Shown here: positions 35,721-39,728 of the stretch, in pieces | Position numbering within the stretch: position 1 is the stretch's first letter | How the letters are laid out: the number at the start of each line of letters is the position of its first letter | NCBI GenBank assembly: GCA_017449495.1 | Contig: JAFTFO010000038.1 | Location: 1-64,000, forward strand | Length of the DNA: 64,000 nucleotides | Direction: 5' to 3' | Origin: Prevotella sp. | GTDB lineage: Bacteria > Bacteroidota > Bacteroidia > Bacteroidales > Bacteroidaceae | The notes under the pieces: generated by a model | Databases searched by the model: none | Seen by the model: the letters and a program-made list of their open reading frames with translations, nothing else | Told to the model about the DNA's origin: nothing | Translations under genes and position numbers: made by a program

Positions 35721-35728
35721 TAACTTTG
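35721..35728 (+). promoter_or_regulatory. -7 box of the IIC-kduI-exuT unit
   Basis: TAACTTTG, 52 bases before the start codon. The leader right after it holds a CCACAGATGACTCAGATTAA version (35,732-35,751) of the CAGATTA repeat. No clear -33 box. Confidence 0.5.
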
Positions 35729-35779: not shown

Positions 35780-37150
35780 ATGGAACAGGTATTCAGTTAC
35801 ATTATCAGTTTAGGAGCATCGGTGATGATGCCCATTCTCTTTACGATTATCGGCCTGTGCATCGGCATGAAGTTCGGCAAGGCCCTGAAGAGTGGTCTCT
35901 ATGTTGGCGTGGGTTTTGTGGGCTTAGGCATCGTGACGGCGCTGCTGACGAACAACTTCGGCAACCCGCTGAGTGAGATCTCGCGGCTCTATGACCTACA
36001 ACTTGGTGTGTTCGACATGGGCTGGCCCGCCGCCGCTGCCGTGGCCTACAATACGGCCGTGGGTGCGCTGATTATCCCCATCTGCTTAGGCGTGAACTTC
36101 CTGTTGCTCATCACGAAATGTACCCGCACGGTGAACATCGACCTGTGGAACTATTGGCACTTCGCCTTCATTGGCGCCGTGGCCTACTTCGTGATGGACC
36201 AGAGTCTGGCCTGGGGCTACTTCGCCGCCATTGTCTGCTACATTATCACGCTGGTGATGGCCGACCTGACCGCCGATAAGTTCCAGGGCTACTACGACGA
36301 CATGGAGGGTATCTCCATCCCGCAGCCTTTCTGCCAGAGCTTTACGGCCTTCGCCATCGGCATCAACTGGCTGCTCGACAAGATCCCCGGCTTCTCAAAA
36401 CTCGACATCGACGCTGAGGGACTGAAACGCAAGTTCGGTGTACTCGGCGAGCCGATCGTGCTGGGTGTCATCGTCGGTGCGCTGATCGGTGCTGTGGCCC
36501 AGATGGACATCAAGAAGGTGCTGTTCCTCGGCGTGACGATGGGTGCCGTGATGGAGTTGATACCGCGCATCACCAAGCTCTTCATCGACGGTCTGAAGCC
36601 GATCGCCGAGAAGACGCAGGAGGTGGTTCAGAAGAAATGGGCTGGCAAGAAGGTGTATATCGGCATGTCGCCCGCCCTCGTCATCGGCCATCCGACGACG
36701 CTCGTGGCCTCGCTCATCCTGATCCCGCTGGCCCTGCTGATGGCTGTGGCACTGCCGGGCAATGAGTTCCTGCCGTTAGCCTCGCTGGCTGGTATGTTCT
36801 ATGTGTTCGTGATGGTGCTGCCTTACACGAAGGGTAATGTGGTGAAGACGCTTATAGTGGGTCTCATCGCGGTAGGTATCGGCCTCTGGTTCGTTACCGA
36901 CATGGCTCCCGCCTTCACGCAGGCTGCCCAGACCGTCTATGCCCAGACGCAGGACCCTGCCGCCAAGATCCCAGAGGGCTTCCAGGCTGGTGCACTCGAC
37001 TTTGCCTCAAGTCTCTTCGGCTGGGTCATCTATAAGTGTGTCAACAGCTTGGCCTATATCGGCGCCGCCGTGCTCACGCTGATCACCCTCGCCATGATGT
37101 GGTGGAACCGCCGCCGCATCGTCGCCGAGGAGAAAGCCGCTAAGGCGTAA
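35780..37150 (+). CDS. PTS galactitol-type IIC membrane protein, orphan
   Basis: A 456-residue membrane protein with 10-11 hydrophobic segments and the EIIC-GAT (galactitol) family pattern: N-N-F-G-N-P-L near residue 57, M-G-W-P-A-A-A-A-V-A-Y-N near 77, and H-P-T-T-L-V-A near 308. In Enterobacteria such proteins work with phosphorylated IIA and IIB and HPr. Bacteroidetes lack a general sugar PTS and no IIA, IIB, HPr or EI is in the window, so this IIC probably acts as a plain transporter. Followed 39 bases later by kduI and then an ExuT-like permease, so a uronate or keto-deoxyuronate substrate is the best inference. Confidence 0.85.
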   Translation: MEQVFSYIISLGASVMMPILFTIIGLCIGMKFGKALKSGLYVGVGFVGLGIVTALLTNNFGNPLSEISRLYDLQLGVFDMGWPAAAAVAYNTAVGALIIPICLGVNFLLLITKCTRTVNIDLWNYWHFAFIGAVAYFVMDQSLAWGYFAAIVCYIITLVMADLTADKFQGYYDDMEGISIPQPFCQSFTAFAIGINWLLDKIPGFSKLDIDAEGLKRKFGVLGEPIVLGVIVGALIGAVAQMDIKKVLFLGVTMGAVMELIPRITKLFIDGLKPIAEKTQEVVQKKWAGKKVYIGMSPALVIGHPTTLVASLILIPLALLMAVALPGNEFLPLASLAGMFYVFVMVLPYTKGNVVKTLIVGLIAVGIGLWFVTDMAPAFTQAAQTVYAQTQDPAAKIPEGFQAGALDFASSLFGWVIYKCVNSLAYIGAAVLTLITLAMMWWNRRRIVAEEKAAKA

Positions 37151-37189
37151 GTTAATAGTTTATGGAATTAGAATAAAAAAGTATATATT

Positions 37190-38179
37190 ATGAACAAGAA
37201 AACAATTTTGACTTTATTGCTTATGAGTAGCTTGACCAATGGCTTCGGCCAGCAGAACGTGAACTTCCAGACGGCTTGTCATCCCGAGGACGTGAAGCAC
37301 TACGACACGAAGACCCTTCGTGAGCGCTTTGTGATGGAGAAGGTGATGGTGGCCGACGAGATTAACCTGACCTATTCGATGTACGACCGCTTCATCTACG
37401 GTGGCGCCATGCCTGTGACCAAGGACCTGAAGCTGGAGACCCACCCCCAGTTGCGTGCCGACTATTTTATGCGTAACCGTGAGTTAGGCATCATCAATAC
37501 CGGTGGCGACGGCGTGGTGATCGTCGACGGACAGGAGTATCCGTTAGGCTACAGCGAGGCACTCTATGTAGGCCGCGGATGGCTGGGTAAGGACAAGAAG
37601 GGCGCTGATATCGACTCCAACAAGGAAGTGATCTTCCGCTCGAAGGACCCGAAGAACCCTGCTAAGTTCTACCTGAACTCGGCTACCGCCCACCAGCACT
37701 ATAAGACACAGTGGGTGACGCTCGACGGACGTAAGAACGGTAATGTCCAGAGTCTGAAGGCTACTATCGTGGGAACCAAGGACAAGCCCTTAGGCACACT
37801 GGCCGAGAGCAACCAGCGCACCATCAACCAACTGATCGTGAACACGTCGTTGGAGGAGGGGCCCTGCCAGCTGCAGATGGGACTCACACAGTTGCAGGCA
37901 GGTAGTGTGTGGAACACCATGCCCGCCCACACCCATGGCCGCCGCATCGAGGCCTACTACTATTTCAATGTGCCCGAGGGACAGCAGGTGAGCCATTTCA
38001 TGGGTGAGCCTCAGGAGACCCGTGTCGTCTGGCTGAAGAATGAGCAGGCCATCATGTCTCCGGAGTGGAGCATCCACTGCGCCGCAGCCACCTATTACTA
38101 TACCTTTATCTGGGGTATGGCCGGTGAGAACCTGAACTACAACGATAAGGACAATATCCCCGTGATCGACCTCAAGTAA
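37190..38179 (+). CDS. kduI: 5-keto-4-deoxyuronate isomerase KduI with signal peptide
   Basis: A 329-residue KduI. The enzyme converts 4-deoxy-L-threo-5-hexosulose uronate, from unsaturated oligouronides, to 3-deoxy-D-glycero-2,5-hexodiulosonate. Zinc ligands are intact: His247 and His249 (A-H-T-H-G), Glu254, and His296 (W-S-I-H). Known KduI are about 280 residues and cytoplasmic. This one begins [20 protein letters not shown] before Q-Q-N, a typical Sec signal, and the conserved part starts at about residue 30, so it should be exported. It also carries insertions at about 130-147 and 183-205. Middle gene of the IIC-kduI-MFS unit. Confidence 0.9.
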
Positions 38180-38200
38180 TATCAATTTTCAATTATAAAT

Positions 38201-39646
38201 ATGACTCCCGTACAAACAACAAAGATGTCCAACTTCCGCTGGGTCATCTGTGCGCTGCTCTTCTTGGCAACCACCGTTAACTATCTGGACCGTCAGGTCT
38301 TGTCATTAACCTGGAAAGACTTCATCGCGCCCGAGTTCCACTGGACCGACGCCACCTACGGTAAGATCACGGCCTTCTTCTCTGTGTTCTATGCCATCGC
38401 CAACCTCTTCGCCGGAAAGTTCATCGACTGGATGGGGACGAAGAAGGGTTATCTGATAGCCATCTTCGTATGGTCGCTCGGTGCCTGCCTCCATGCAGGC
38501 TGCGGATGGGTGGCCATGCAGATTGAGGGCTACAGTACCATCGCCGAACTGGGACAACTCACGGGTGATGCCGCCGTCGCTCTGGCCACGATCTCTATGT
38601 ACCTCTTCCTGGCCTGCCGCATGGTGCTCGCCCTTGGTGAGGCCGGAAACTTCCCCGCCGCCATCAAGGTGACGGCCGAGTACTTCCCCAAGAAGGACCG
38701 TGCCTTCTCTACCTCGATCTTCAACAGCGGTGCATCGGTAGGTGCGCTGGTGGCTCCTCTGTCCATTCCCCTGCTGGCTCGTGCCTGGGGCTGGGAGATG
38801 GCCTTCATCGTGATCGGTGTGCTGGGCTTCATCTGGATGGGTCTGTGGGTATGGCTCTATGAGAAGCCCCACAAGAGCAGGTTCGTGAATCAGGCAGAGT
38901 TGAACTACATCGAGCAGGATAACGATATCGCCGAGGTGCAGGAGAAGGCTGAGCCGAAGGATGAGAAGACGATCCCGTTCTTCAAGTGTTTCACCTATAA
39001 GCAGACGTGGTCGTTTATCGTGGGCAAGCTGATGACCGACGGTGTGTGGTGGTTCTTCCTGTTCTGGGCGCCCGCCTATTTCAGTGAGCAGGGCTATCGT
39101 TCCGACTCGGGCATGGGTATCGCCCTTATCTTCACGCTCTACTTCATCGTGACGGTGATCTCGATCGGTGGTGGCTATCTGCCTACCTACTTTGTGGAGA
39201 AGCGCGGCATGAATCCCTATCTGGGCCGTATGCGTGCCATGCTGATCTTCGCCTGCTTCCCCCTGCTGGGACTGCTGGCACAGCCTATGAGCACCATCAG
39301 TCCTTGGTGGCCTGCCATCTTGATCGGTCTGTTAGGTGCCGGACACCAGGCTTGGAGTGCTAACCTCTTCTCGACCATCGGCGACATGTTCCCGAAGTCG
39401 ACCATCGGTACTATCACGGGTATCGGCTCAATGGCCGGTGGTCTGGGCTCGTTTGCCATCAACTATTGTTCTGGTGAGTTCTTCGACTGGGCAGCCGCTC
39501 AGGGTGCAGCCTATACATTCTTCGGATTCGAGGGCAAACCTGCCGCCTACATGGTGGTGTTCTGCATCTGCTCCGTGGCCTACCTCATCGGCTGGTGCAT
39601 CATGAAGACGCTCGTGCCGAAGTACAAGCCCATCGTGGTCGAATAA
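38201..39646 (+). CDS. MFS hexuronate transporter (ExuT-like)
   Basis: A 481-residue MFS permease of the anion:cation symporter family, with 12 hydrophobic segments. N-Y-L-D-R-Q near residue 26 and F-A-G-K-F-I-D-W-x-G-T-K-K-G between segments 2 and 3 are ExuT-like signatures; G-E-A-G-N-F-P-A-A-I in segment 4/5 matches hexuronate/gluconate members. It takes up galacturonate or glucuronate by proton symport. Cytoplasmic loop at about 235-260 is charged. Last gene of the unit and ended by the long hairpin at 39,661. Confidence 0.88.
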   Translation: MTPVQTTKMSNFRWVICALLFLATTVNYLDRQVLSLTWKDFIAPEFHWTDATYGKITAFFSVFYAIANLFAGKFIDWMGTKKGYLIAIFVWSLGACLHAGCGWVAMQIEGYSTIAELGQLTGDAAVALATISMYLFLACRMVLALGEAGNFPAAIKVTAEYFPKKDRAFSTSIFNSGASVGALVAPLSIPLLARAWGWEMAFIVIGVLGFIWMGLWVWLYEKPHKSRFVNQAELNYIEQDNDIAEVQEKAEPKDEKTIPFFKCFTYKQTWSFIVGKLMTDGVWWFFLFWAPAYFSEQGYRSDSGMGIALIFTLYFIVTVISIGGGYLPTYFVEKRGMNPYLGRMRAMLIFACFPLLGLLAQPMSTISPWWPAILIGLLGAGHQAWSANLFSTIGDMFPKSTIGTITGIGSMAGGLGSFAINYCSGEFFDWAAAQGAAYTFFGFEGKPAAYMVVFCICSVAYLIGWCIMKTLVPKYKPIVVE

Positions 39647-39660
39647 ACAAGTGTAATTGG

Positions 39661-39728
39661 AAACGAATTCCCGTAATTGATCATAATCCTGCCACGGAAT
39701 TATGATCAATTACGGGAATTCGTTTTAG
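39661..39728. terminator. Long perfect hairpin between convergent genes
   Basis: 27-base arms at 39661-39687 and 39699-39725 pair without mismatch around an 11-base loop, with T runs outside on both strands. It can end transcription of exuT-like and nitroreductase genes from both sides. The stem is much longer than needed and contains GAATTC and TGATCA palindromes. Confidence 0.8.

Follow-up and report, generated by a model that had tools for sequence, protein, structure and literature searches.

A Predicted Exported KduI Isomerase Paired with an Orphan Galactitol-Type IIC Permease in Prevotella and Other Bacteroidaceae

Gene Organization of the Locus

The window analysed here is a stretch of 64,000 nucleotides (contig JAFTFO010000038.1, positions 1 to 64,000 of the forward strand) from a Prevotella sp. 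genome, assembly GCA_017449495.1, a metagenome-assembled genome rated 68% complete. It contains a row of three open reading frames on the + strand, separated by gaps of 39 and 21 bp. The first (35780..37150, 456 amino acids) encodes an orphan galactitol-type IIC permease of the phosphotransferase system (PTS), assigned by comparison with PF03611, TIGR00827 and the solved chain 9u82, and proposed here as the carrier of the KduI product. The second (37190..38179, 329 amino acids; NF002091, chain 9kd0) encodes KduI, the isomerase of 5-keto-4-deoxyuronate (DKI, the same compound as DHU), preceded by a predicted signal peptide. The third (38201..39646, 481 amino acids; PF07690, TIGR00893) encodes an ExuT/DgoT-like permease of the major facilitator superfamily (MFS). 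The IIC–KduI pair is a conserved module within Bacteroidaceae. A first-pass annotation had noted a signal-peptide KduI with all its zinc ligands next to an orphan galactitol-type IIC and an ExuT-like permease; this description is upheld, and the three genes form an operon. Coded loci, genomes and genera are cited below by L-, G- and g-numbers, respectively.

A promoter-like element, TAACTTTG (35721..35728, + strand), lies 51 bases 5' of the IIC start codon; it is a consensus match only, to a motif that we take to be of the Bacteroidota type. An inverted repeat of 20 pairs (39670..39716, no strand), also a consensus match only, follows 3' of the MFS gene and likely marks the end of the transcription unit. 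The GH8 and GH5 genes lying upstream were considered as parts of the operon and dropped, GH8 being found near IIC in 4/80 relatives and GH5 in 0/80.

Distribution of the IIC–KduI Pair

An EIIC-GAT protein occurs in 152 of 399 Bacteroidaceae genomes (104 of the 207 well-assembled ones), and KduI in 222 of the 399. Across the phylum, IIC was detected in 3/296 genomes, as two full proteins in the window's own family and one weak partial match below cut-off. Both genes are present in 151 of the 399 Bacteroidaceae genomes, IIC alone in 1, KduI alone in 71 and neither in 176, which places KduI in 151/152 genomes with IIC versus 71/247 without it (Fisher p 7e-53, kinship being ignored). The lone IIC without KduI is a partial one, in a genome that is 83% complete (G565). 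States with and without IIC are both encountered inside genera g1, g2 and g146.

The two genes are also neighbours. A place of IIC is listed for 148 IIC genomes, and in 141 of them KduI lies no more than 3 kb away. Among the other seven, G535 and G565 have no listed place for KduI, IIC sits at, or close to, the end of a contig in G509 and G300, and the last three are discussed below. In the named collection, KduI stands behind IIC, within 3 kb, in 78/80 loci; one of the two remaining loci (L069) ends right behind IIC, so that KduI is not visible there. A small GxxExxY-like gene, recognised by eye, is seen between IIC and KduI, or behind IIC, in L092, L096, L108 and L100.

The Exported Isomerase

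The KduI of the window scores 351 bits against NF002091, above the curated cut-off of 250. The alignment begins only at residue 26, which leaves about 20 extra residues at the N-terminus, ahead of QQNVNF. All four zinc ligands expected by the first-pass annotation are found by alignment, as His247, His249, Glu254 and His296 (37928..38077, + strand), matched to residues that we take to be numbered His196, His198, Glu203 and His245 in E. coli KduI. They are invariant in 122/122 distinct signal-peptide KduIs and in 74/74 distinct cytosolic ones.

The extra residues have the features of a signal peptide (residues 1–20, 37190..37249, + strand), with predicted cleavage before Gln21, according to a rule of our own, not SignalP. 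By this rule, the protein does not correspond to a classical cytosolic KduI, which has no signal peptide. The rule passes 132/132 signal-peptide KduIs (a circular figure) but 0/86 cytosolic ones; among control proteins, it passes KduD in 1/52 cases, TyrRS in 0/14, FolB in 0/14 and nitroreductases in 1/17, as well as 15/27 DUF4861 proteins, which by eye are lipoproteins or exported. Of its earlier versions, a cruder one missed two clear cases (L032, L086) and a second gave a wrong reading or none at eleven IIC-side loci. An [AGSC]-Q pair is found at residues 13–32 in 122/122 distinct signal-peptide KduIs.

The clear signal peptide claimed from the single sequence is predicted throughout the scorable IIC-side proteins: next to IIC, it is present in 75/75 scorable KduIs from the 80 loci of the named collection and in 30/30 from a further set of 31 loci, or 105/105 scorable cases of 111 loci together. 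KduIs from genomes lacking IIC are cytosolic in 69/69 cases, with 0 signal peptides (65 read by script and 4 by eye; the remaining two of the 71 such genomes hold fragments). All fetched loci taken together, 218 scored records, duplicates and E. coli included, comprise 131 with signal peptide and IIC, 86 cytosolic without IIC and a single one with a signal peptide and no adjoining IIC. In this last case, L141 of G300, IIC is found on a different short contig. Thirteen extra rows without the anchor motif were judged by eye, giving 5 with signal peptide and IIC (L157, L216, L217, L220, L222) and 8 cytosolic ones, these 8 from other families. A class-wide draw of 198 genomes yielded 16 KduIs in other families, of which 0 had a signal peptide (7 by script, 9 by eye).

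The best match of the exported KduI among solved structures is chain 9kd0 (E 1.5e-121). The alignment of this chain opens at its residue 2, against QVNYKMQVAC, where the mature L001 protein is predicted to begin, suggesting that a signal peptide was omitted by its depositors as well. Judged from its sequence, KduI is very likely exported.

A Permease without Phosphotransfer Partners

The IIC belongs to the EIIC-GAT family PF03611 (247.8 bits versus a cut-off of 24.2, E 2.6e-73) and has a relative of known structure in the galactitol IIC 9u82 (E 1.2e-80). It stays below the cut-off of the galactitol-specific model TIGR00827 (385 versus 542 bits). Among the plasmid-collection matches listed, the closest IIC from outside Bacteroidota is that of a Clostridioides, with 45.5% identity, which is accompanied by IIA and IIB.

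When 28 non-redundant Bacteroidaceae IICs (of 137) are compared with ten PTS-coupled relatives, each with annotated IIA and IIB nearby, they depart from these at six strongly conserved positions. One of these six differences is chemically marked: at the position of Ser297 in the window (codon 36668..36670, + strand), within the GLDxA motif, Asp is found in 10/10 PTS-coupled relatives, versus Ser in 27/28 and Thr in 1/28 Bacteroidaceae IICs. Ser297 aligns with Asp314 of UlaA (profile alignment, probability 96.8), a match that is moderate evidence because UlaA and GatC are distant. The available portions of PMC6048161 describe a contact of this Asp314 with ascorbate. The Asp-to-Ser change would fit a pocket that takes an acid and has ceased to offer a hydroxyl for phosphorylation.

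Neither HPr nor the EI N-domain was found in the window's genome, and since that genome is incomplete, relatives were examined. HPr was found in 0/78 well-assembled IIC carriers; 80 of the 152 carriers were searched in total, the other two being G300 and G327, which both have it. The EI N-domain scores above cut-off in 5/399 Bacteroidaceae genomes, the only IIC carriers among them being again G300 and G327 (2/152); a sixth match, in G638, is weak and below cut-off. Queries taken from real systems, four IIA and four IIB proteins that each matched at least 8 of ten PTS control loci, gave 0/152 matches at E 1e-4 in the fetched flanks of the Bacteroidaceae IIC loci, a search of flanks only and not genome-wide. 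For the window's IIC, none of the marks expected of a functional galactitol PTS was encountered, whether HPr and EI, IIA/IIB in the fetched flanks or the Asp of GLDxA. The first reading of an IIC devoid of IIA, IIB, HPr and EI stands, for HPr and EI in a genome that is 68% complete and for IIA and IIB in its flanks. The wider claim of a phylum without a general sugar PTS was examined at the family level, where it nearly holds, yet EI does occur in those 5/399 genomes.

A fused PTS IIC-IIB-IIA followed by HPr and EI is found at L279:4787-8381 (G327) and, in the same gene order, at L278:7463-10379 (G300). The fused protein of G327 is of another family (PF02378, PF02302, PF00359), and the HPr and EI placed directly behind it would be served by this permease of their own. 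By its gene content, this is a self-contained PTS in one genus of a family in which EI is rare. As for the orphan IIC, its sequence and surroundings make it very likely that it does not operate as a PTS permease.

Pathway Genes around the Module

Rows with further pathway genes, in the order kdgK-kduD-kdgA-IIC-kduI, are found at three loci of two genomes in one genus (L130, L215, L216). They encode a 2-keto-3-deoxygluconate (KDG) kinase, a KduD-type reductase, a 2-keto-3-deoxy-6-phosphogluconate (KDPG) aldolase, IIC and an exported KduI, with no permease other than IIC. The aldolase scores above the cut-off of its model (361 versus 275 bits); the kinase, a PfkB protein, comes closest to KDG kinase models without reaching their cut-offs. 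A KduD-type reductase is found near KduI in 12/50 sampled IIC loci, versus 39/51 loci of cytosolic kduI, two of these 51 being second copies in IIC carriers (G326, G457).

Enzymes acting on pectin are also met. A GH88/GH105 gene adjoins IIC in 12 genomes; L139, L269, L270 and L271 have a pectinesterase nearby, L271 together with SusC and SusD. At the genome level, GH88/GH105 was detected in 40/40 sampled IIC carriers (of 152; 36 with E <1e-30), in 20/20 genomes with KduI only (of 71; all <1e-30) and in 7/20 with neither gene (of 176; 2 <1e-30). A source of DKI therefore accompanies KduI; export of these hydrolases was judged by eye, for a few proteins. The window's genome also encodes a fusion of a GDSL acylhydrolase with GH88/GH105, next to a GH35 gene (L268:10018-12063, contig C21), and this fusion is a likely source of keto-deoxyuronate there. 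DUF4861 (PF16153) is encoded next to cytosolic kduI-kduD in 26/51 loci (L213, L180 and others) and next to IIC in L137 and L274:12117-13391, which makes it a candidate pectin/uronate protein.

The MFS permease of the window scores 166 bits against TIGR00893, below the cut-off of 395, so that its ExuT-like label is not confirmed by this family model; its relatives are 26–29% identical to E. coli ExuT. Considering the IIC–KduI loci with 2.5 kb of downstream sequence, counted as loci and not as independent genomes, an MFS gene is directly downstream in 68/87 and not in 19/87. It was observed once beside a cytosolic kduI-kduD pair (L187). The MFS permease is a frequent yet optional partner of IIC–KduI, and the galacturonate uptake that the first-pass annotation ascribed to it is a putative role.

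Origin of the Exported Form

In a tree of 67 KduI cores, two label changes are needed, one of which is owed to L214, and the branch uniting the exported KduIs has a support of 93 (not starred). The simplest reading is that exported KduI arose once. Repeated independent gain of the signal peptide, suspected from the varied N-termini, was set aside on the basis of these two changes. L214, in G303, is a second, decayed IIC–KduI copy, which stops where the end of IIC would be and has lost the KduI start, its core being identical to that of L130. The script scored it as cytosolic, and it is one of the 86 records in that class, although it derives from an exported KduI.

The 151 genomes with both genes hold a single KduI match in 122 cases and two in 29. 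The window's genome offers an example of a missing cytosolic gene. In L191, from the same genus, the order is metK, DUF4271, hemD, tyrS, kduI, kduD, rhomboid, endo/exonuclease; the window's genome keeps this order minus kduI, with no kduI remnant detected between tyrS and kduD at E 10, and its sole KduI is the exported one. A GH43-like reading frame is seen by eye behind its kduD. The reductase at this tyrS locus starts without a signal peptide and is 72–92% identical to those of six relatives that have the cytosolic kduI-kduD pair. Its L130 counterpart passes the gluconate 5-dehydrogenase model (458 versus 369 bits). In the text available from Nishimura et al. (PMC12838403), the Bacteroidota-type reductase is called DhuD.

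Of note, in rumen Prevotella (L034–L113) IIC is 94–96% identical to that of the window, and KduI often only 65–74%, with a few at 90–93%. It seems that lineages have exchanged the KduI gene of this module.

A Pathway Split across the Inner Membrane

These elements can be arranged into a pathway that would begin in the periplasm, with GH88/GH105-type hydrolases freeing DKI from unsaturated oligosaccharides of pectin or glycosaminoglycans and exported KduI converting it there to 2,5-diketo-3-deoxygluconate (DKII). Acting as a secondary carrier, IIC, which is cut off from any phosphoryl relay, would then bring DKII, or a mixture of DKI and DKII, over the inner membrane. Reduction to KDG would fall to a cytosolic KduD/DhuD-type enzyme, and KdgK and KdgA would handle the product further. 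The gene cluster and its recurrence, the signal peptide, the zinc site, the lack of HPr, EI and nearby IIA and IIB, the Ser297 change and the absent cytosolic kduI are read from sequence; the export of KduI in the cell, its catalysis, the molecule transported and the coupling ion are what we infer.

Periplasmic isomerisation with IIC as a plain transporter of keto-deoxyuronate, as put forward in the first-pass annotation, is well supported by comparative genomics, the substrate being what we infer. It is so because of the near-strict co-occurrence of the two genes, the signal peptide restricted to the IIC side and the lack of HPr and EI, and also because of the Ser297 change, the rows that add the remaining pathway genes and the absence of a cytosolic kduI from the window's genome. 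That IIC carries the KduI product across the inner membrane is probable. The fuller scenario, in which a PTS permease became a secondary or facilitative carrier of DKII while KduI was relocated and cytosolic kduI lost in some lineages, is favoured somewhat more cautiously. Many gut and rumen relatives of Bacteroides and Prevotella seem to run one pectin-sugar step outside the inner membrane and to import the product by IIC.

Other explanations can be weighed against the same data. The incompleteness of the window's genome, and the joint presence of IIC, HPr and EI in G300 and G327, would be arguments for an IIC that remains a PTS permease, with its phosphotransfer proteins encoded elsewhere. 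Such an arrangement is extremely improbable, since HPr is absent from all 78 well-assembled carriers searched, EI reaches its cut-off in only two of the 152 and, in G327, both proteins stand behind the fused permease of another family; a PTS with distant partners is likewise not supported by these counts, nor by the 152 sets of flanks free of IIA and IIB. The dependence of the signal-peptide call on our own rule leaves some room for a non-working signal peptide and a KduI remaining in the cytosol. This is very unlikely, as the N-terminal stretch is kept in every scorable IIC-side KduI and absent from those of IIC-less genomes, the [AGSC]-Q pair is constant, and residue 2 of 9kd0 aligns where the mature protein should begin. 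The MFS permease, which belongs to the hexuronate/galactonate branch and was seen beside a cytosolic kduI-kduD pair, might instead import keto-deoxyuronate, with IIC serving for a different product of pectin, for instance galacturonate or a polyol. We consider this unlikely, because the MFS gene is missing from 19 of the 87 loci, including the kdgK-kduD-kdgA-IIC-kduI operons where IIC is the sole permease, and because KduI tracks IIC, not MFS.

Import of the KduI product by a IIC freed from the PTS has nevertheless several observations weighing against it. Besides the incompleteness of the genome, the MFS gene, directly downstream in most loci, could carry the same compound. The loci are related to one another, which the Fisher value does not take into account. 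IIC and KduI are apart in G475, on different contigs, and in G671 and G639, by about 13 kb; L100 is a real exception, with an IIC and no KduI nearby. G303, which has the full operon, gives only weak GH88 matches (best 1.5e-10). The reductase of the window's genome is below the KduD cut-off (201 versus 339 bits), and the distance between UlaA and GatC limits what Asp314 can say about Ser297.

If the proposed pathway is correct, the breakdown of pectin and glycosaminoglycans in many Bacteroidaceae would be split across the inner membrane, with KduI turning a reactive aldehyde into a diketone ahead of import, and IIC would be an example of a PTS permease shedding group translocation. The module provides a named candidate carrier for keto-deoxyuronates over the Bacteroides/Prevotella inner membrane, together with a relocated enzyme, and two arrangements, with cytosolic or exported KduI, are told apart under one annotation name.

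Comparison with Known Systems

In the full-text literature searched, with subscription papers mostly outside it, no earlier report was found of the link between IIC and exported KduI, of the gene row, of its pathway context or of the residue change. The enzymes and intermediates of the present module are shared with E. coli KduI/KduD (L119) and with the Dickeya pathway. E. coli KduI has no signal peptide, unlike that of the window, and in Dickeya, as presented in the accessible text of PMC12838403, oligomers are imported first and isomerised after. The kduI-dhuD clusters of Bacteroidota described by Nishimura et al. (2025, PMC12838403) bring together, in Bacteroidaceae, genes of the isomerase and reductase families met here. 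In the part of that article available, cytosolic and exported KduI are not separated, the terms "signal peptide" and "PTS" do not appear, and the single "periplasm" refers to Dickeya.

On the permease side, E. coli UlaA and GatC and chain 9u82 share, by sequence, the family and fold of the window's IIC. Unlike it, they act with IIA and IIB and retain Asp at the position of Ser297. KdgT of Erwinia/Dickeya imports keto-deoxy sugar acids and belongs to a permease family unrelated to IIC. The closest precedent is the Bacteroides galactitol IIC homologue TC 4.A.5.1.4, likewise a single IIC without phosphoryl-transfer proteins. As far as the accessible text goes, Zafar and Saier (2018, PMC6281302) find one galactitol IIC in five of the seven Bacteroides species examined, B. 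thetaiotaomicron being included by their wording; they state that a PTS mechanism is impossible for it and suggest a secondary carrier instead. Their IIC genes are described there as monocistronic, whereas IIC is here in a row with an exported KduI, and KduI, uronate and pectin are terms absent from that text. The non-PTS galactitol IIC of Bacteroides is already published; to this the present analysis adds an exported KduI, the row of genes with their pathway context, and the change at Ser297.

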